A DNA stretch of 40,682 nucleotides from Desulfocapsa sp. Lineage in GTDB: Bacteria > Desulfobacterota > Desulfobulbia > Desulfobulbales > Desulfocapsaceae. The DNA lies in contig JAFLJS010000012.1 of NCBI GenBank assembly GCA_022712895.1, positions 1-40,682 of the forward strand. Reading direction: 5' to 3'. This document shows, piece after piece, positions 14,743 through 30,902 of this stretch. How positions within the stretch are numbered: position 1 is the first letter of the stretch; each line of letters starts with the position of its first letter. The notes below the pieces were generated by a model, which was not told the DNA's origin, searched no databases, and saw only the letters and a program-made list of their open reading frames with translations. Position numbers and translations under genes: made by a program.

Positions 14743-17700
14743 ATGAGCACTGTAACTCTGAACATAAATGGCGATCAAATTGTAGCTGAAGAGGGGATTA
14801 CCATCCTTGAAGTTGCCAAACGATCAGAAATAACCATTCCCACCCTTTGTCATGTAAAAGGTAAGCCTGCTGATTCCCCATGTAGCGTTTGTGTGGTTGA
14901 AGTGGAGGGTCAAGATGAATTAATGCGATCCTGCGTAACCCTTGCCAAAGAAGGAATGGTTATCCAGACAGAATCTGACGATGTTATTAAACATCGTCAA
15001 GAACGTCTTGCTGTGATCTCAGAAAACCATTTTGGAGATTGTAAGGCGCCATGTAATCTTACCTGTCCAGGTCAGATTAATGTTCAAGGCTATATAGCAC
15101 ATGTTGCCAAGGGCGAATACGAAGAGGCATTGCGTGTGGTAATGGATCGAAATCCTCTTCCATTTTCAGTGGGACGTGTCTGTCCACGTTTCTGCGAAAC
15201 CAGATGCCGTCGTATACTGATTGATGAACCTGTCTCTATCAACCACCTGAAACGTTTCGTTGCAGACTGGTGTATGAAAAAGGAGATAAATCTTAAGATT
15301 CCAAAGGATAAACCAACAGGTAAACGCATTGCTGTTATTGGTGGTGGACCTGCTGGATTGACAGCGGCATGGTTCCTTGCCAAGAAAGGTCATGAGGTAA
15401 CTATATTTGAGGCGGCCCCAAAACTTGGTGGTAACCTGCGATATGGCTTACCGGATTATAAGATACCTAAAGATATAGTTGACTATGAAGTGAACGCTAT
15501 TATGCGCATGGGCATAAACGTTCGTCTCTCTCAGCGGTGGGGCACTGATTTCACTCTGAAGGATTTGAAAGATTTTGGTTTTGATGCCACCTTTATTGGT
15601 GTTGGCGCAACTGTCGATGTTCCTTTTGATGTGCCTTGTACCGATAAGGCCAACGTTTATACTGCTGCCAATTTCCTGCGTCAGATTAACGAAAGAAGGG
15701 AGCTTGATCTTGGCAAGAAAGCTGCTGTTATTGGTGGAAATAATATCGCCATGGAAGTTGCCCGGTCACTTTTGCGTCAGGGAGTTGAACAGGTAACCGT
15801 TATTTATCCTCGTGCTCGTCTTGAGATGCCTGCGAATCAGCGTAATGTTAAGGAAGCCCAAAATGAAGGAATCCAGTTTCTGCTTATGGCCTCTCCCAGT
15901 GGCTTGTGCGCCGTACCAGATAAAAACCATCGTTTAAAACTTGATCTTATCAGGATGAAACTTGGTGAGCCCGACAAAAAGGGTAAACGTGATATCCTGC
16001 CAATTACAGATTCAATGAACACTCTGGGTGTTGATACCGTTATCTCTTCACTCGGCCAAAGGGCAGTGATTGGAGAGACTATGCTTGGCGGTGAGCTGGA
16101 AGCGCAGTTAAAAATAAAGCCAAATGGAATGTTCGACGCCAATGCTCGTAGTGCACAGACCAGTGTTGAAGGCGTTTTTGCAGGAGGAGATGCCTCCACT
16201 GGTACAAAATCGGTTATTCAGGCAGTTGTTTCCGCACGGCGTGCTGCAAACAGTATCAATGCCTTTGTCATGGGTTGTGAAAAAGAGCCTGCTGATGATC
16301 GTTTTAACTTTACCCGTGGTAAAGGTTTTGATGACGTATCCTTAGCCAATTTTGAAGGCATCGGTATTAATCTTCGTGAGAAGATGCCCACCAGGCCTCC
16401 TGAGGTTTCCACACAGGATTATGATGAGGTGAAGCTCGGTTTTACCGAAAATATGGCTAAGCGTGAGGCCGAACGCTGTTTGAAGTGTGGGTGCACCGCC
16501 TTTGAACGCTGTGATCTCAAACGTCTCGATATTGACAACAAGATCAATATCAACAAAACGGGAATGGGTAAAGTACCTGTTTATCCAATTGATGAAAGTC
16601 ACCGGGCCATAACTGTTGATCCTAATAAATGCATTTTTTGTGGCCGTTGCGAACGATCCTGTGAATACGATGCCTTGGAAGTTCGTGCCACTTCTCTTGA
16701 TGAGAAAGGACGACCTGTAGGCCTCGTCATTGATTTCAAGGAAAACTGTGTTTCATGTGGCAAATGTGTTGATAATTGCTCAACAGGTGCATTGAACAAG
16801 AAAAATCGCATAGTTCCAATCCAATCTGAAGAGGTTCGAGAAGTCCGAACAACCTGCCCCTATTGCGGCACAGGCTGTCAGATGATTTTGAAAATCAAAG
16901 GGCAGACTTTGATGGAAGTCACTGCTGATCCTGAAGTTGGACCTAATTACGGTGATCTTTGTGTGAAAGGCCGTTTTGGACATAATTTTATCCAGCATCC
17001 AGACCGCTTAACTACACCGCTGATAAGGCGTCAGAAGGGTATGCCCCTCGAACCTGTAAAGTGGGATGAAGCATTGGATTTTATGGGACAGGCATTTTCC
17101 AAGATTCTTGGTGAGAATGGACCGGATGCGCTGGCTGGACTCTCTTCAGCCCGCTGTACAACTGAAGAGAATTATGCCTTTCAAAAATTCTTCAGGGCTG
17201 GGATAGGAACAAATAACATTGACCACTGTGCCAGATACTGACACAGCCCAACGGTGACCGGTCTGGTCACGGTACTTGGTTCAGGCGCTATGACAAACAC
17301 CATCAACGGCATTCTCGAAAGTGATGTAATGCTGGTGATTGGTTCGAACACTACAGAGACCCATCCTATTATCGGTTTGCGAATGCTTGAGGCCGTTAAA
17401 AAAGGATCAAAATTGCTGGTTGCTGATCCTCGCAAAATTCAGCTTTGTGATTCTGCCGTCCAGTGGATGCAACAGCGTCCCGGAACAGATGGTGCACTTA
17501 TCAATGCCCTTTGTCATGTTATCATGAGCGAAGGCCTTGAAGACAAAGAGTATATTGCTGAACGTACTGAAAACCTTGACGCATTCAACGAATCCATTGA
17601 AAAGTGTAGCCCTGAATGGGCCGAAGAAATAACAGGTGTCAGTGCAGATACCATAAGAGATGTTGCCCGTATATTTGCTGCAGGTGAACGAGCAGGTATC

Positions 17701-18927
17701 TATTACACCATGGGTATCACTCAGCACACCTCAGGAACAGACAATGTGTGTGCTCTTGCCAACCTTGCCATGATTACCGGTAACCTCGGGAAAATTGGTG
17801 CTGGACTCAATCCGCTACGTGGTCAGAATAACGTGCAGGGTGCCAGTGATATGGGTTGTAACCCGAGCTTTTTTCCTGGTTATCAGAAGACAAACGATAA
17901 GGCGGCATGTGACAAATTTTCTGAAATATGGGGAGTTACCGTTTCAGATAAACCAGGTCTTATGGCCACTGAAATGCCTAACGCCATTACTGATGGTAAG
18001 TTGAAGGGATTATGGATCATGGGTGAAAATCCTGTAATCAGTGACCCCAACAGTGATCATGCAAAGCATGCTTTTGAACAGCTTGACTGCTTGGTTGTAC
18101 AGGATATCTTCCTTACTGAAACTGCAGAAATTGCAGACGTTGTATTGCCGGCTGCTGTATTTGCAGAAAAGAATGGAACATTTGCCAATACCGAAAGAAA
18201 GGTGCAACGTGTTCGTCGGGCACTTATCCCACCAGGAGATTCACGAGACGATCTTTCCATAATCAATATGGTCAGTAATCGAATTCTTGGGAACAGTAAT
18301 AGTGGCTATAACGGATATTCTGATCCCATTTATCATACCGTCGCTCCCCTGGCCTCAGAAGTTTTTGATGAGATGACAACGTGCTGGACTGCAATGGCAG
18401 GTATGAGCTATGAGCGCATTGAAGATGAAGGTCTTGTCTGGCCCTGTCCCGATAAGGATCACCCCGGAACTCCAGTTCTGCATATAGATGGTTTCCCTAG
18501 GGGAAAAGGATATCTCTCTGCCATTACCTGGTCAGGACCTGCAGAATTACCAGATGCGGATTTTCCACTGGTACTAACCACCGGTAGAGTATTGTATCAG
18601 TATCACACAGGAACTATGACACGTCGATCTGAGGTTCTTGAGGGAGCAGCGCCTTCTGCCTATGTTGAAATGCATCCTGAAGATGCCGCTCAGTTGAATG
18701 TTGCAGATAAAGAGATTGTTCGCGCAAGTTCAAGACGTGGTCAAATAAAACTTGCAATACGGATTACTGACAGAGTGAACAAAGGACTGGTTTTTATTCC
18801 ATTCCACTACAAAGAAGCTTCTGTCAACCTGTTAACAAACGACGCACTTGATCCTCATAGTAAAATACCCGAGGCCAAGGTGTGTGCCATAAAGATTGAA
18901 AAGATTAGCGAAGCTGTTGCAGTATAA
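14743..18927 (+). CDS. fdhA: Selenocysteine formate dehydrogenase fused to a GltD-like flavoprotein and ferredoxin domains
   Basis: One 1394-residue frame if UGA at 17239-17241 is read as Sec833. Domains in order: [2Fe-2S] ferredoxin (C36, C47, C50, C64); a GltD/NfnB-type cysteine-rich domain ('DCKAPCNLTCPG', 'GRVCPRFCETRC'); FAD-binding 'RIAVIGGGPAGLTAAWFLA' (from about 195) and a second Rossmann 'KKAAVIGGNNIAMEVARSL' for NAD(P)H; two [4Fe-4S] clusters (from C630 and C669); then a molybdopterin/tungsten formate dehydrogenase opening with C705-P-Y-C-G-T-G-C712. The context 'DHCARYU-HSPTVTG' matches the Sec site of formate dehydrogenases. It should interconvert formate and CO2, passing electrons to NAD(P)H, ferredoxin or the adjacent HdrA. 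No signal peptide. Only a weak ribosome site is seen, so coupling to acsC is likely. Confidence 0.92.
17254..17270 (+). promoter_or_regulatory. Bacterial SECIS hairpin of fdhA
   Basis: GTGACC (17254-17259) pairs perfectly with GGTCAC (17265-17270) around the loop GGTCT, 12 nt after the in-frame UGA. A GGUCU apical loop is also that of the E. coli fdhF SECIS bound by SelB. Confidence 0.85.
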
Positions 18928-18956: not shown

Positions 18957-21900
18957 ATGGGAAAAGCAATGATACACAGGGAAGGCGCTGTGATGATACT
19001 AGGCGGAGGAATCGCCGGTATACAAGCCGCCCTGGATATGACTGACCTTGGGTATTACGTCTATCTGGTCGAGAAGTCACCAGCTGTTGGTGGCGTAATG
19101 GCTCAGCTGGACAAGACATTTCCGACAAATGATTGTTCTCTCTGAATCCTGGCGCCAAAGCTGGTAGAGGCCGGTCGGTCTCCAAATATTGAGATGATTA
19201 CCAATGCGGATTTCCTCGCATTGGAAGGTGAAGCAGGCGATTACACTGCAAAGCTGAATATTCGTCCCCGTTATATCGATGCAGATGCATGTACAGCCTG
19301 TGGGCTCTGTACTCAGTATTGTCCAAAGCATCACTCAGATTCATACAATGAAGGGCTATCCATCACCCGTCCTATTCATATAGATTATGCCCAGGCAGTT
19401 CCTGCCACATACTATATTGACCCTTCATCCTGCATGTTTCTGCAGCATGACACTTGTCAGATTTGTGTCCCCGTTTGTCAGAGTCATGCTATTAACTTCA
19501 GTCAGAAACCGGAAGCCAGAGATCTGAAGATCGGTGCAGTTATTCTGTCACCCGGTTTTGGGAAGATCGCGGAAAGCACCCTTGAGAAGTTCTCTTACGG
19601 GAAACATCCCGATGTAGTAACTGCTTATGAGTATGAGCGCATGACAACTGCTTCAGGTCCGTTTCTAGGAGAGATCAAATGCTTCTCCGATGGACGGCAT
19701 CCAAAATCAATGGCTTTTATTCAGTGTGTCGGCTCCCGTGATCTTGGTTGTGACAACGGTTACTGTTCATCTGTCTGCTGTATGTATGCAATCAAAGAAG
19801 CACTGGTTACCAAGGAACATGATCCTGAAGTGGACATCACTATCTACTACATGGACATCCGTACTCAGGGCAAAGATTTTGATGCAGCTCGTGAACGCGC
19901 CGAAAATATTGGTATCAAATTTGTTCGCGCAAAAGTTGCTGATGTAACACCATGGGATAATCATCTGAAACTGACCTACTCAACCCTTGATGGTCAGCAT
20001 AAGTTTGATGCCCATGATATGGTTGTACTCTCTGTTGGGCTTGAGTCTCCAAAAGATGCACAGAAAATTGCCGATATTACAAAAATTGATCTCAATAAAT
20101 ACGACTTTTGTAAAACCGGAACCTTTACGCCCCTTGAAACCAGTAAGAAAGGAATTGTTGTGGCCGGTGCTTTCCAGGGACCCAAAGATATTCCTGAGTC
20201 AGCAACTCAAGCTTCTGGTGCCGCAGCCCTTGCAGCTGTAACACTCAAAAAACAGCGGGGTAAAGGTACAGTTTTAAAGGAGTATCCAGAAGAACTTTCC
20301 GTTACCGATGAAGACGAAGTTCGTATTGGAGTTTTTGTCTGCCATTGCGGTATCAATATCAGCTCTGTTGTTGATTGTCCTGATGTAGCCAACGAAGCTG
20401 GTGGCATGGAAAATGTTGCCTACTACACAGAAAATCTGTACTCCTGTTCACAGGATGCTCAGGAACAGATCAAGCAGACAATTATAGATAAAAAACTGAA
20501 CAGAGTTGTTATTGCCGCCTGTTCACCTCGAACCCACGAACCTCTTTTTCAGGAGACCCTGAAAGATGCAGGACTCAATAGAAACCTTTTTGAGATGGTG
20601 AATATCCGGGACCAATGTTCCTGGGTACATGCCAACGAGCCTGAAGAAGCCACCCAAAAATCGAAAGATCTGGTTCGGATGGCTGTGCATAAGGCCGCCC
20701 ATATTCAGCCTCTGCCTGAGCAGACAGTGCCAGTAACACCAAAGGCTCTTGTACTTGGTGCTGGTGTTGCCGGAATGACCGCAGCACTCTCTCTTGCTGA
20801 TCAGGGATTCCCTTCCATAATTGTGGAAAAGGGTGACAAGGTTGGTGGGCAAATGCTTAATTTGAAAAATACCCTCAATGGTGAATCCATTGCTGCGCAT
20901 TTAAAGTCTCTCACTACAAAAGTGGAAAAGGCTAATAATATTGAAGTAATGCTTAACTCAGAACTTGTTGAAACGGCAGGTTTTGTCGGTAACTTCAGCT
21001 CTGTTATTGCAACCGGTAAGACCAAGAAAAAGAAAGAGACCACCTATGATCATGGTGTAGTGGTAGTTGCCACTGGTGGCCATGAGTATCGTCCTAAAAT
21101 GTACGAATTAGGTAAGTCCAAGAAGGTCTGCACGCAGCAGGAGCTTGAAACAAAACTTGAAGGCCGTGCCAAGAATCGTGCACCTAATTCAATTGTTATG
21201 ATTCAGTGTGCAGGTTCCCGTGGCGATGATTTGGGATACTGCTCTAAGGTCTGCTGTAATCACGCAATGAAAAATGTTTTAAAAATCAAGGAGATCAACC
21301 CTGATTCTCAAGTCATTGTGCTCTATAGAGATATTCGTACCTACGGTTTTGCAGAAGATGCATACCTTGAAGCACGCAAAAAAGGCGTGATATTTATCCC
21401 ATATGAAGTGGATAGAAAGCCTGTGGTCAGCTCCAAAGGCACAAAAGTTCAGGTGGATTTCTTTGATTCCATTATGCAGGAAGATGTGAGCATGACACCT
21501 GATCTCGTTGCCTTGTCAGTTGGTCTGGTACCGAACAGTACCGATGAACTTTCTAAATTGTTGAAATTACCCGTTACAGCCAATAAGTTCTTTCTGGAAG
21601 CACATGTCAAACTTCGTCCAATAGAGATGGCGGTAGAAGGTGTGTATGTTTGCGGACTGGCCCACGGTCCAAAACCAATTGACGAAACCATCGTTCAGGC
21701 ACAGGCCGCTGCAGCAAAAGCTGCCATGCCGCTTGTTAACGGAAAGGTAAAAGTAGATCCAATTGTATCCACCGTTGATCAGGAAGATTGTATTGGCTGT
21801 GGAATTTGTACCAGTCTCTGTCCGTATGGTGCAATCACCATGGTAAAGATAGAAAAGAAACGTAAAGCCTTTACCATTGCAGCATCTTGCAAAGCTTGCG

Positions 21901-22016
21901 GTATCTGTGCTGCACACTGCCCGACATTTGCCATATCCATGGGTGGCTTTACCAACGAACAGCTGATTTCACAAATTGAAGCGTTTGGAAATAAAAAAGA
22001 AAAAGTAGAGGCTTAA
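18957..22016 (+). CDS. hdrA: Selenocysteine HdrA-like protein (heterodisulfide reductase subunit A) with duplicated FAD domain
   Basis: One 1019-residue frame if UGA at 19143-19145 is Sec63. It begins directly with the HdrA FAD domain ('[20 protein letters not shown]', '[29 protein letters not shown]'), where Sec occupies the conserved cysteine of the DCSxC motif. Ferredoxin ligands follow ('[12 protein letters not shown]' from C112; 'CQICVPVC'). A second half repeats the HdrA N-terminal module ('[16 protein letters not shown]', '[11 protein letters not shown]') and a second FAD domain ('[21 protein letters not shown]') lacking the DCSxC site, then two C-terminal [4Fe-4S] motifs ('[12 protein letters not shown]', '[12 protein letters not shown]'). 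HdrA is the flavin-based bifurcating hub of Hdr complexes. GGAG lies 8 nt before ATG. No hdrB or hdrC follows. Confidence 0.92.
19167..19182 (+). promoter_or_regulatory. Bacterial SECIS hairpin of hdrA
   Basis: GAGGCC (19167-19172) pairs with GGTCTC (19177-19182, one G-U) around the loop GGTC, 21 nt after the in-frame UGA. The loop has the conserved G in its first two positions. Confidence 0.75.
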
Positions 22017-22052
22017 TCAGAAGTCTACACTAATAGATTTTCGGAGAACATA

Positions 22053-22655
22053 ATGTCAGATAATGAATTCAGCCCAAAAATTCTTGGGTTCCTCTGTAAC
22101 TGGTGCTGTTATGCAGCAGCTGATGCTGCCGGGGTATCGCGTTTTCAATACCCGCCAAATATGCGGACTATACGGGTAATGTGCACAGGAAGAGTAGACC
22201 CTTCTTTTATTCTGAAAGGATTTCTTGAAGGAGCTGACGCAATTTTTACCGGCGGCTGACAACTTGGCGAATGCCATTACCAGGTTGGTAATTATGATGC
22301 GATGGGCGTGGATGCACTGGTTAAAAAAGTGCTTCGTGATGTGGGAATTAAAGAAGAGCGATACAGCTTACAGTGGGCTTCCGCCGCTGAAGCCCCTCGT
22401 TTTGTAAAGTTGATCACTGACTTTACAGAAGAGATGAAAGCGCTTGGTCCCATTGGAGAAGCTGAAGGTTTCTCTAAAGAAGAAGTTCAGGATCGGATTC
22501 AGCAGGCATTAGATGCTTTGTCCAGCCAGAAAGTACGTATTGGCTTTGGTAACGCTTCTAAAGCAGTACGTAAAGATGCAATCTGGACCGATGAGCATAT
22601 CAGTGGTATCATCAATAAAAAGATGGAAAAATCACTGGCATCTCTTAGTAAATAG
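22053..22655 (+). CDS. mvhD: Selenocysteine MvhD-type [2Fe-2S] electron-transfer protein
   Basis: One 200-residue frame if UGA at 22257-22259 is Sec69. MvhD/FrhD-like motifs are visible: 'LGFLCNWCCYAAADAAG', 'MRTIRVMCTGRVDP', and 'GADAIFTGGU-QLGECHYQVGNYDAM', where Sec replaces a conserved cysteine thought to bind the cluster. In methanogens and acetogens MvhD links HdrA to hydrogenase or formate dehydrogenase. Here it should link HdrA to the upstream FdhA fusion or another dehydrogenase. The region from about residue 85 on is a helical tail usual in longer MvhD proteins. CGGAGAA precedes the ATG by 6-7 nt. It ends the operon, just before a strong terminator. Confidence 0.92.
22276..22292 (+). 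promoter_or_regulatory. Bacterial SECIS hairpin of mvhD
   Basis: ATTACC (22276-22281) pairs perfectly with GGTAAT (22287-22292) around AGGTT; a seventh A-T pair would leave the loop GGT. It begins 16 nt after the in-frame UGA. Confidence 0.75.
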
Positions 22656-26833: not shown

Positions 26834-27769
26834 ATGACAATTTACGTAACTGGTCACTCTAATCCTGATACCGATTCAGTAACCGCAGCTATTGGCCTTG
26901 CCGCTTTGTTAAATGCTCAGGGACAGGACGCCAAGGCTTGTATGCAATCTACTCTTGCTGATCTTAATCCAGAGTCCACTGTAGTTCTTGAAAAATTCGG
27001 TCTTACTGCTCCTGAAGAGATGATGGACTGTTCCGGTAAAACTGTTGCACTTGTTGATTTCAGTGATATCGCTCAGGGTCCTGCTGGTCTTGGAGATGCG
27101 GATGTTGTCAGCATCGTTGATCATCATAAGCTTGGTGATGTAACCACAAACCAACCGATTCTTGTTCGTTGCGAGCCTGTTGGTTGTAGCGGCACTGTTC
27201 TCAATAAAATGTACAAAGATGCTGGTGTTACAATTGCTAAGGATGTTGCTGGTGGAATGCTTTCCGCTATCCTTTCCGATACTGTTAACTTTAAGTCCCC
27301 CACCTGTACCGATGATGACAAAGCAGCTGTTGCTGAATTGAAAGTTACTGCTGGTGTTGATGATACAGACTCATTGTTCATGTCTATGCTTGAAGCCAAG
27401 TCTTCTGTTGCTGGGGTTCCTGCAAAAGATCTCGTTTTCCGTGATTACAAAGATTTCGATATGAATGGAAACAAAGTAGGTTGTGGACAGCTTGAGCTTG
27501 CCAATCTTGATCAGGTTGCTGATATTCGCGAAGACCTTCTCAATGCTTGTAAAGAAGTTAAGGCTGACGGACGTCACACTGTTCTTCTTATGCTCACCGA
27601 TGTGGTAAAAGAAGGAACTCAGCTTGTAGTTGTTTCTGACGATGTTGCCCTTATTGAAGGTGCTTTCGACGGAAAACTTGATGCTGCTACTGAATCCATG
27701 TGGATTGACGGTATGATGAGCCGTAAGAAGCAGACTGTTCCAAATATGCAGAAAGCATTTGGCTGCTAA
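26834..27769 (+). CDS. ppaC: Manganese-dependent inorganic pyrophosphatase (family II)
   Basis: This 311-residue DHH-family enzyme hydrolyses pyrophosphate to phosphate in the cytoplasm. Motifs: 'VTGHSNPDTDSVTAAIG', 'VALVDFSD', 'VSIVDHHK' (the DHH motif), 'GCSGTVLNKMYKDAG', 'LSAILSDTVNFKSPT' and C-terminal 'SRKKQ' for substrate binding. It is a single-unit gene with its own promoter and terminator, and GGAG 9 nt before the ATG. In sulfate reducers it would pull forward the sulfate adenylyltransferase reaction, which makes pyrophosphate; that role is inferred. There is no regulatory CBS insert. Confidence 0.95.
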   Translation: MTIYVTGHSNPDTDSVTAAIGLAALLNAQGQDAKACMQSTLADLNPESTVVLEKFGLTAPEEMMDCSGKTVALVDFSDIAQGPAGLGDADVVSIVDHHKLGDVTTNQPILVRCEPVGCSGTVLNKMYKDAGVTIAKDVAGGMLSAILSDTVNFKSPTCTDDDKAAVAELKVTAGVDDTDSLFMSMLEAKSSVAGVPAKDLVFRDYKDFDMNGNKVGCGQLELANLDQVADIREDLLNACKEVKADGRHTVLLMLTDVVKEGTQLVVVSDDVALIEGAFDGKLDAATESMWIDGMMSRKKQTVPNMQKAFGC

Positions 27770-27964: not shown

Positions 27965-29575
27965 TTATCCTGCTGGACAGGCAATCTTTTCTAATTTGGG
28001 TTGGTACTGGAAGTTGTCATCATGCGCATCAGTGTGGCAGGTGAGGCAGATATTGATTCCGGGGGTTCGAACCAGTTTGAAATGTTCTGGGTCTTGCAGA
28101 TGCTTCTGTCCGTTTCCGTGACAGGTTTCACAACCTACGGATTGTAACGCTTCAGGAAAGGAAAGAAGTGACTCAGTGATCAAAGATTCAAATTTCCCTC
28201 CGGGAACATCAATGGTCATATGGCAAGGCAAACATTCAAGGTCAAGATGCTTTTGTTTTTTGACTAAGGTATCGTAGGCTGTTCCATGCTGTGTTGTTTT
28301 CCAGAAGTCACCCTGTAGTTCATGACAGGAAGAACAGGTGTTTGAGCCTATGAGTGATTGGGGTAATCGAATAACCGCAGCCTGTCCGATGGGCTTATTG
28401 GTCTCTTTTTTCTTTTTGTTCAACACCCGTATATCATTATTTAGCTTTTTGAGACGCTCCTCGGTGGGCTGATCATTCGGCATATTTTTTTTCAGTGGTA
28501 GAAAACGGTAAGTGAAGGTGTCTTTGGCCGTACCATCTAGTTGTTCTTCAAGTACCTGCTGTTTCATCTCTGTGATTTCTGTAGTGAGCGCTTCTTTTTC
28601 ATTCTCAAGCCTTGTGATGGTGGCTGCGTATTTTTCCGTAAATCCTGTTGACTTTGATTTTTTCAGGAGCCTTTGTAATTGCCAGTTAAGAGAACCGAGT
28701 TTGTTTTGCAGATCGGCTAATATTTTTTGGCTGTCTTGGCCCCATTGACGACTGTTTCCTAGGGAAATTTGTAGTAATCCTTGAGATTTGCCTTGTCTTT
28801 CGGTCTGGATAAGTAAACTCTTATTTACCAGAGTCGGTGATACATTTCCCTGACGACTATCGGCGGTAATAAGAAGTGAAATCTCCGGAAATATTTGTGC
28901 AATTTTCCGGTTTTCGCTATTGTTCAGTGAAGAAAGTAGAATGATGAAAATGTCGGAATGTTCGGTCGTTATCTGCTTGAGTATAGAAGGTAATACCTCC
29001 TCCCATGATTGCATTTCGACACCCGGAATGGCCCGCTCAGGCGCATTGCTCACAGCTGTTATGGCAATGTTCCGTCCTTGGATCTGTTTTTTGATGATAC
29101 TCTTAAAAAGCAACTGTCCATTCTTTCCAACAATATTTGCAGAAAGCCAGGGGAAGCCACTTGCTTTGGATTCCTGGAGCAGTGTCAGGCCTCCAGCCAG
29201 GTCATGAGGGCCAACAGCCACAGCGTCATAGCCAATGTCAGTATAAACATCAAGAATAGTGGCAGCTGTTAGTCTTTCCTGGTTAATGCCTTTGGCAACG
29301 ATTTTGCGTTTGAAGAGGAGATTGCCACTGTCTACTAATAATCTGTTTGTAGACTTTTCTTCAGTGAGGTTCTTGATCTGGAACAGTTTTTTGGACAGCC
29401 CGCCCAATTGATTGGATTTTCAGCCACAAGGTTCTGTTTCACCCTGAACATTTCCAGAAAAGAAGAGTTGAAGCGGTTTTGGAGCAGCCGTCGCAGAAGT
29501 TTGCAGAGAAACAATAAAAAACGTACAAAGCAGCAAAGGTATGAACAAGGGGGAGAGATTATTTTTTCGTATCAT
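27965..29575 (-). CDS. Candidate selenoprotein: exported metallophosphatase-like protein fused to a tetraheme cytochrome c
   Basis: Read through UGA at 29422-29420, the frame gives 536 residues. The signal peptide is 'LFIPLLLCTFFIVSL...ATA'. Next comes 'LFFSGNVQGETEPCGU-KSN' with Sec52, then 'QLGGLSKKL'. Relatives in this UshA-like family normally read PCGC here, as I recall the family. A degenerate metallophosphatase region follows ('LLVDSGNLLF', 'AVGPHDLAGGL'), then a coiled-coil-like stretch (about 280-390), then four haem motifs: CSSCH (C414), CLPCH (C448), CETCH (C482) and CLTCH (C510). Without the UGA codon the remaining frame would have no signal peptide, impossible for a c-type cytochrome. 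The ATG overlaps the end of rarA by 17 bp. It is periplasmic; substrate unknown. Confidence 0.82.
29391..29407 (-). promoter_or_regulatory. Candidate SECIS hairpin in the tetraheme protein gene
   Basis: On the minus strand TTGGGC (29407-29402) pairs with GTCCAA (29396-29391, one G-U) around loop GGGCT. It begins 12 nt after the UGA, the same distance as in fdhA, and has G in both first loop positions. Confidence 0.65.
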
Positions 29576-30902
29576 GTCGTCGTTTTTGAAGAATTACCCG
29601 CCATTTTTGCAGGCGGTCTTTTACCAGAGCTTCGTAGCCCCGATTCGTCGGTGAGTAAAAATGTGATCCTGTAATCTGCTCCGGTAAGTGCTCCTGAGCG
29701 ACCAGTGCGTCGCCAGCATTATGAGCATATTGATAGCCTTTGCCATAGTCAAGATCTTTCATTAATTTAGTTGGTGCATTTCGAAGATGCAAGGGAACTG
29801 CGAGAGTGCCGGATTTTCGGATGCATTTACGCACATCACTCTCAGCGTTGTATAAAGCATTGCTCTTTGATGTTGTTGCCAGATACACAACAGCCTGGGC
29901 AATGGCCAGTTTTCCTTCGGGTATACCAAGGGTATGATATGCATCACGGCAGGAGAGGGTATGTGCTAAAGCCTGTGGATCGGAGAGCCCCACATCTTCT
30001 GACGCAAATCGGATAAGACGCCTACATATATATAAGGGGTCTTCCCCTGACTCCAGCATGCGGTAGAGCCAGTAAAGGCTGCCGTCCGGATCTGAGTCCC
30101 TAAGGCTTTTGTGCAGTGCTGAAATAAGGTTGTAATGTTCTTCTCCATCCTTATCATACCGGAGTGAGAATTGTTGGGCTGCTTCCTGTACATCAACCAG
30201 AGTTATCAGGCGCTCTGTGTGTGCTTTTTTGTCTTTGAGCCGATGTAAGGCAAGGGTTGCGGCAATGTCCAGGCTATTTAATCCTTTTCGGGCGTCTCCA
30301 TCAGCCTGTGCGATTAACACTTCGAGACTATCTTTGCCAAAAGAGAGTTGGTGTGTGCCCAGCCCACTGTCTACGTCAGTCAAAGCCCTGGTGAACACCA
30401 TTTCCAGGTTCTCGTCGCTGAGAGGTTGCAAGACAAGCACTTTGCATCGCGATAGCAGGGGAGCGATAACCATAAATGATGGATTCTCAGTGGTTGCCCC
30501 TATTAACGTGAAGAGGCCACTTTCAACATGGGGCAGGAAGGCGTCCTGCTGGCTTTTGTTAAAGCGATGGATTTCATCAATAAAAAAAATAGTGCCTCGG
30601 TTTTCCTTCTCTTTGAGCGCTTTTGCCTGGATTACTATTTTACGAACCTCTTTCACTCCTGAGAGGACTGCAGAAAAAAAGACAAAATCAGCAGATGTTG
30701 ATTGTGCAAGAATTTTGGCAAGAGTTGTTTTGCCGGTGCCGGGTGGTCCCCAGAGAATTAGAGATGGCAGGGTATCTGCGGCAAGTACCCCCTGCAATAG
30801 TTTGCCCTTACCGACGAGTGATTCCTGGCCTGCGAAATCACTAAGGGTTTGGGGGCGCATGCGCTCTGCAAGGGGTGTATGTGAGAGGGTGTTTTGGCTC
30901 AT
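29559..30902 (-). CDS. rarA: Replication-associated recombination protein RarA (AAA+ ATPase)
   Basis: RarA/MgsA (447 aa, family length) is a clamp-loader-like AAA+ ATPase acting at stalled replication forks. Motifs: N-terminal 'LAERMRPQTLSDFAGQESLV', Walker A 'LWGPPGTGKTTLA', Walker B 'IFFIDEIHRFNKSQQDAFLP', sensor 1 'TLIGATTENPSF', and the C-terminal tetramerisation region 'SLRDSDPDGSLYWLYRMLE'. The tail 'HFYSPTNRGYEALVKDRL' is conserved in the family. Its 3' end overlaps the start of the cytochrome gene. Confidence 0.95.
   Translation of the reverse strand: MSQNTLSHTPLAERMRPQTLSDFAGQESLVGKGKLLQGVLAADTLPSLILWGPPGTGKTTLAKILAQSTSADFVFFSAVLSGVKEVRKIVIQAKALKEKENRGTIFFIDEIHRFNKSQQDAFLPHVESGLFTLIGATTENPSFMVIAPLLSRCKVLVLQPLSDENLEMVFTRALTDVDSGLGTHQLSFGKDSLEVLIAQADGDARKGLNSLDIAATLALHRLKDKKAHTERLITLVDVQEAAQQFSLRYDKDGEEHYNLISALHKSLRDSDPDGSLYWLYRMLESGEDPLYICRRLIRFASEDVGLSDPQALAHTLSCRDAYHTLGIPEGKLAIAQAVVYLATTSKSNALYNAESDVRKCIRKSGTLAVPLHLRNAPTKLMKDLDYGKGYQYAHNAGDALVAQEHLPEQITGSHFYSPTNRGYEALVKDRLQKWRVILQKRRHDTKK

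Follow-up and report, generated by a model that had tools for sequence, protein, structure and literature searches.

A Probable UshA-Like Tetrahaem Selenoprotein in Desulfocapsa: Selenocysteine at Codon 52 and a Possible Redox Role for a Former Metallophosphatase Fold

Introduction

Does the in-frame UGA at positions 29420..29422 of this Desulfocapsa contig, read on the reverse strand, end a gene or encode selenocysteine, and what might a selenol do in a protein that resembles both a metallophosphatase and a multihaem cytochrome? An earlier note on the window (the whole stretch of 40,682 nucleotides analysed here) had proposed, from the letters alone, a candidate fourth selenoprotein beside three other selenoprotein genes. 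That proposal is followed here through the reading frame, the homologous codons, the RNA downstream of the UGA, the predicted fold and the gene neighbourhood.

Results

Reading frame and family

Translated with UGA as selenocysteine (Sec), the reverse-strand coding sequence at 27965..29575 is a single frame of 536 residues, running from 29575 to 27965, with one UGA, at residue 52, in the context E-P-C-G-U; the motif P49-C50-G51-U52 occupies 29420..29431 (reverse strand). On the 5′ side of the UGA lie the start codon, a leader that is hydrophobic by eye and FFSGNVQGETEPCG; from the translation, again by eye, residues 1 to about 31 (29483..29575, reverse strand) form a probable signal peptide, and residues 1-30 have block-mean pLDDT values of 46-65 in the AlphaFold2 (AF2) model. 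On the 3′ side KSNQLGGLSKK is followed by a long globular region, then by a helical hairpin and the four CxxCH motifs. The layout described in the earlier note, with one frame, a single UGA at residue 52, P-C-G-U and four CxxCH, is thus borne out by translation.

The protein matches NF041198 (UshA_like_PCGU, ‘UshA-like (seleno)protein’) at 483.6 bits (cut-off 275) over positions 5-519 of the 519 in the profile, and carries the P-C-G-U/C motif of that family with Sec at the same position; no difference from it was found. Matches to the same family over the cut-off occur in 68 of 394 genomes of the phylum. The 2008 Global Ocean Sampling selenoproteome already lists ‘COG0737, UshA-like’ with the motif CxU (PMC2398784), and the same family appears in a 2022 review (PMC9312934) and a 2026 review (PMC13188914). 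Because of the NF041198 match and this record, the gene does not represent a new family: judged by its sequence, it belongs to one already catalogued, so that the selenoprotein reading stands while novelty at the family level falls, NF041198 naming the family and these papers placing it in print since at least 2008. The second UshA-like (seleno)protein family, NF049981, with the motif CxxU according to the 2026 review (PMC13188914), has a related domain but is matched weakly (28.9 bits, below the cut-off of 140), and the gene has CxU, not CxxU. The nearest named relatives among the best 80 contig loci are records of Desulfocapsa, Desulfobulbaceae and Desulfurivibrio, after which the group is labelled here ‘Desulfobulbales-type’; Cys forms occur in Myxococcota, Planctomycetota and Verrucomicrobiota.

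The Sec column and the Sec machinery

The homologous column was read from 140 loci scanned with a profile, the best 80 from the genome-contig scan and the 30 best-scoring from each of two further match lists; four near-full-length matches without any stop (e.g., G085 and G093) were left out, and the match tally of 87/96 also counts matches to the cytochrome part only. The column is covered in 130 rows, where its codons are TGA (77), TGC (35), TGT (17) and CGA (1), and the 118 distinct rows divide into 65 with UGA, 52 with a Cys codon and one with Arg. Two checks suggested in the earlier note, for Cys opposite the UGA in homologues and for UGA and Cys variants among relatives, therefore both gave positive results. 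Within the 57 aligned sequences, Cys50, the Sec/Cys column 52 and Gly58 are invariant and Pro49 and Gly51 are at least 90% conserved, and in nearly all UGA rows the frame stays open far 3′ of the UGA. The only Arg row (L054, from G196) reads P-S-G-R, having lost both motif residues, and its genome has SelB above the cut-off.

The genome of the window has a tRNA-Sec of 77.3 bits (gathering score 47) and matches to SelB (384.3 bits), SelA (613.5) and SelD (372.8), each above its own cut-off; an in-frame TGA is also present within the SelD match. SelB is above the cut-off in 12 of the 13 genomes chosen because they hold a Sec copy (the miss being the MAG of L069), in 11 of the 18 chosen for a Cys copy, and also in G076, which holds both Sec and Cys copies, and G196, 25 of 33 genomes in total. 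Row L074, from the cable bacterium Candidatus Electronema, is a Cys form, and a search of that genome for SelB returned nothing over the cut-off.

The three fellow selenoproteins (FdhA, HdrA-like and FlpD) also hold up, as known-family frames with one in-frame UGA each, all on the forward strand: the formate dehydrogenase alpha gene fdhA (14743-18924, TGA at 17239; TIGR01591, 795.7 bits against a cut-off of 666), an HdrA-like gene with its UGA in CSLU (18957-22013, TGA at 19143; HdrA2 NF040770, 955.6 bits, below the cut-off of 1100) and, adjoining the latter, a FlpD-family subunit (22017-22652, TGA at 22257; PF02662, 161 bits). The N-terminal half of FdhA is glutamate-synthase-small-subunit-like.

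The SECIS hairpin

Folding places a hairpin, UUGGGC-GGGCU-GUCCAA, at 29391..29407 (reverse strand), with a 6-bp stem, the loop GGGCU and its first nucleotide 12 nt past the UGA. The fdhA-like spacing claimed for it is confirmed, and stem and loop lengths agree as well, the fdhA hairpin of the window having a 12-nt spacer, a 6-bp stem and the 5-nt loop GGUCU. The core hairpin has an energy of −6.4 kcal/mol (ViennaRNA) and, taken singly, is unremarkable against dinucleotide shuffles (z from −0.66 to +1.46, depending on the stretch folded), its significance emerging only through comparison among relatives. The published bacterial SECIS model has G in the first two loop positions, a small apical loop, a distance of 16-37 nt from the UGA, a stem of 4-16 bp and an MFE limit of −7.5 kcal/mol (PMC13188914). 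The loop GGGCU, the distance of 18 nt and the 6-bp stem agree with this model, while −6.4 kcal/mol is weaker than its limit, the folding settings behind which may differ; the selenoprotein assignment is retained since the limit is taken as a search threshold rather than a defining property, and since the relatives show selection on the hairpin.

This selection appears against synonymous shuffles, in which the protein sequence is preserved and codons follow the usage of the gene concerned. The 65 UGA genes have a 20-nt hairpin of higher stability than predicted (mean z −2.16 ± 0.12) and the 52 Cys genes do not (mean z +0.07 ± 0.13), with a Mann-Whitney p of 5e-18 that is optimistic because the rows are related; p falls below 0.05 in 33/65 UGA genes and below 0.2 in 61/65, against 2/52 and 5/52 Cys genes. 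Over a 42-nt stretch the effect is much weaker (mean z −0.35 in UGA genes and 0.00 in Cys genes), and the 20-nt stretch was picked after the 42-nt folds were known. Codon choice points the same way: among UGA genes, Gly58 is GGC in 64/65 and Gly59 is GGT in 56/65, against 25.2 and 12.9 expected from their own codon usage, and among the Cys genes with Gly at these sites the counts are 23/45 and 6/49. The Arg row is left out of these hairpin figures and of the ligand figures given below, which leaves 117 rows. A signal present in the UGA genes and absent from the Cys genes tells selection on the RNA apart from conservation of the protein.

With Cys opposite the UGA, a SECIS hairpin under selection and the Sec machinery in the genome, the candidate selenoprotein is upheld, and selenocysteine is very probably the residue inserted at the in-frame UGA. 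The comparison strongly supports, almost to certainty, a route in which SelB would direct Sec to the UGA of codon 52, aided by the hairpin 12 nt downstream.

Gene neighbourhood and Sec/Cys exchange

Directly upstream lies the AAA+ ATPase gene rarA/mgsA (29559..30902, reverse strand), whose 3′ end contains the start codon of the selenoprotein gene in a 17-nt overlap, and convergent downstream lies ppaC (26834..27769, forward strand), for a Mn-dependent inorganic pyrophosphatase of the DHH type (NF003877, 370 bits, cut-off 283). Both neighbours recur. In 43 distinct rows, among them that of the window, the gene is preceded by a co-directional rarA, followed by a ppaC on the other strand, or both, and every one of these rows is Sec; neither neighbour is seen in the remaining 22 Sec rows or in any of the 52 Cys rows. 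Where at least 1 kb of flank is present, rarA lies beside the gene in 38/60 Sec rows and 0/51 Cys rows, and ppaC in 34/61 and 0/47, and in the scan for the two genes the orientation was consistent in 50/50 (rarA) and 45/45 (ppaC) raw best matches. The four Cys rows that fall within the Desulfobulbales-type clade (L027, L072, L074 and L075) were not seen at the rarA/ppaC place. As rarA and ppaC, the neighbours that recur, are not redox genes, the neighbourhood gives no hint of a pathway.

A quick tree of the 107 of 118 distinct rows with at least 300 columns requires at least six Sec/Cys changes, five of them forced by well-supported branches. Rows L075 (Cys) and L106 (Sec) are sisters with an SH-aLRT of 100 in one MAG (JAHIVT01), probably through a duplication with a change from Sec to Cys; the L075 copy is not beside rarA or ppaC.

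Outside the Desulfobulbales-type loci, the most frequent neighbour family, DUF1573 with an overlapping Ig-like model, accounts for seven of 109 proteins at 27 loci. These DUF1573-like neighbours (L104, L105, L115, L119, L126, L129 and L133, assigned from the Pfam table for L115 and L129 and by count and eye for the remaining five) lie upstream on the same strand, with one ORF between in L133, and they contain C-G-C-T in six cases and C-K-C-T in L126. All belong to the planctomycete/verrucomicrobial Cys branch, and in these planctomycete/anammox-type Cys forms the neighbouring DUF1573-like CxCT protein hints at a partnership of two CxC proteins. At the Electronema locus, the Cys form is preceded, at a distance of about 0.5 kb, by a thioredoxin-like gene (PF13098, L074:3665-4483).

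Predicted fold and the metal site

The AF2 model was built with an alignment of the window protein and 56 relatives, namely those of the 80 contig loci that include the Sec column and span 340 or more columns, and reached a pLDDT of 89.6 and a pTM of 0.88. In it, together with Foldseek, VIA-align and ligand mapping, residues about 33-275 (28751..29479, reverse strand) are predicted as a domain of the 5′-nucleotidase/SoxB type in which the metal ligands are not kept, followed by a helical hairpin at residues 282-347 (28535..28732, reverse strand; helices 282-310 and 313-347). Foldseek ranks E. coli UshA first (E 1.8e-15), profile matches to UshA and SoxB are weak, and the model aligns with UshA, CD73 and SoxB at Z 30-31 and rmsd 2.4-4.0 over 271-308 residues (for UshA 4wwl, VIA-align Z 31.2, rmsd 2.4, 272 aligned), although the aligned residues span 31-467 in many rows and the match may therefore extend in part past the N-terminal domain.

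The seven metal ligands of UshA, D41, H43, D84, N116, H217, H252 and Q254, face N42, Q44, N85, P123, S216, D239 and R241, respectively, so that none of the seven is kept; the pairing of Q254 with R241 comes from hhalign, whereas Q254 faces a gap in MAFFT. The position of the UshA catalytic His117 is retained as H124, as it is in 3/65 Sec rows and 2/52 Cys rows. Among the 117 rows with Sec or Cys, N116 is never kept, four of the seven ligands is the most that any row retains, and 53/65 Sec rows and 34/52 Cys rows keep none or one; the columns of the final three ligands are unaligned in one Sec row and in 14-15 of the Cys rows. Some rows keep D/H/D or D/D/H/H residues. With up to four of the seven ligands left in some rows, a portion of the family may still bind metal. 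In both hhalign and MAFFT the PCGU stretch is opposite a UshA gap directly after metal motif I, which would place it beside the former metal site.

The description ‘metallophosphatase-like’ therefore holds for the fold of the predicted model and fails for the metal ligands. The protein has its N-terminal fold in common with UshA, CD73 and SoxB and differs from all three in its missing ligands, in the PCGU insertion and in a second half made of the helical hairpin and the haems. From the alignments and the model, it is highly likely that a 5′-nucleotidase/SoxB-type scaffold has lost its two-metal site and now bears a Cys-Gly-Sec pair in the motif-I loop.

The tetrahaem domain

Residues 410-517 (28025..28348, reverse strand), with the four CxxCH motifs, match Pfam PF13435 (Cytochrome_C554; 4.3e-10, over the cut-off) and the profile of the solved cytochrome c554 1bvb (8.6e-14). 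The haem-binding pattern and local sequence are common to this domain and the Nitrosomonas cytochrome c554 of PF13435, from which it differs in being fused C-terminally to a nucleotidase-like domain. Four in-frame haem motifs are present in 70/77 UGA rows (none in six, one in one) and in 49/52 Cys rows (three in the other three). Five of the six haemless UGA rows are short forms of 330-340 residues past the Sec, and a frameshift interrupts the sixth (L015). Within the 0.4-2 kb examined downstream, L025 has one CxxCH in the next ORF, L015 has an out-of-frame ORF with four haem motifs, probably owing to the frameshift, and the other four have no separate haem gene. Many further matches of the same family end near residue 370-405, and haemless forms are under-represented in these counts because loci were taken best match first.

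Discussion

The best overall explanation, to which a probability of roughly 0.6 is given, is that the gene encodes a periplasmic NF041198 selenoprotein acting as a selenol/thiol-haem oxidoreductase. The protein would be exported to the periplasm and loaded with haems, Cys50 and Sec52 would cycle between the selenol/thiol and selenenylsulfide states against a periplasmic substrate, and electrons would pass to or from the fused c554-like tetrahaem domain; for the cycle itself and its exchange of electrons with the haems, the odds appear about even. Since the literature search returned no functional study of UshA-like PCGU selenoproteins, the redox activity is one that we infer, and since SoxB is among the best fold matches, a sulfur compound may be guessed as the substrate.

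The pair Cys50-Sec52 might alternatively bind a metal or metalloid such as Cu or Hg, as the site of a chaperone or a resistance protein, with the haems as an unrelated electron carrier. Pairs of the CxU and CxC types are common soft-metal ligands, and the DUF1573-like proteins upstream on the same strand (7/109 neighbours, 27 loci) would supply a second CxC pair; however, neither a copper nor a mercury family is found among the 25 commonest neighbour families at 17 Desulfobulbales-type loci (205 matched) or at the 27 other loci (155 matched), and the presence of Sec in 43/43 rows at the rarA/ppaC place would favour redox catalysis over simple binding. This alternative is rather unlikely. Less probable still is a phosphoesterase or thioesterase that remains metal-dependent, with Sec and Cys as new ligands. 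The fold and the weak profile matches to UshA and SoxB, the D/H/D or D/D/H/H residues of some rows and the alignment of His117 with H124 speak for such an enzyme, but it would have to work with none of the seven UshA ligands, in a family where none of the 117 rows keeps N116 or exceeds four of seven. Moreover, the second domain of UshA carries substrate-binding arginines, and by prediction and Pfam a hairpin and a haem domain replace it here; a working hydrolase was accordingly rejected as the main reading for its ligand loss. Finally, a true stop or a missequenced Cys codon, with the downstream frame untranslated or restarted at the TTG at 29407, where a 480-aa ORF does begin, is hardly credible and was rejected on comparative grounds, given that 65 distinct rows share the UGA at this codon and that nearly all of them keep the frame open well beyond it, and given a hairpin under selection and Sec machinery in the genome.

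Within the preferred oxidoreductase reading, a more specific history can be put forward tentatively, in which a dinuclear metallophosphatase scaffold may have become a metal-free oxidoreductase of the selenol/thiol type, connected to the tetrahaem domain of the same chain, the copy linked to rarA/ppaC in Desulfobulbales-type bacteria being Sec in 43/43 distinct rows.

Conclusions

For a family already named, the analysis adds new details on NF041198, namely its neighbours, its ligand loss and the selection on its SECIS hairpin, and it provides a further case in which sequence comparison by itself makes a strong argument for UGA recoding, the Cys genes acting as the internal SECIS control. It also draws attention to what is apparently an unstudied periplasmic redox protein, common in Desulfobulbales-type bacteria. 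If the proposed history is true, the protein would represent a new enzyme class on an old hydrolase fold, and the history itself is a testable account of the passage from a hydrolase fold to a redox protein.
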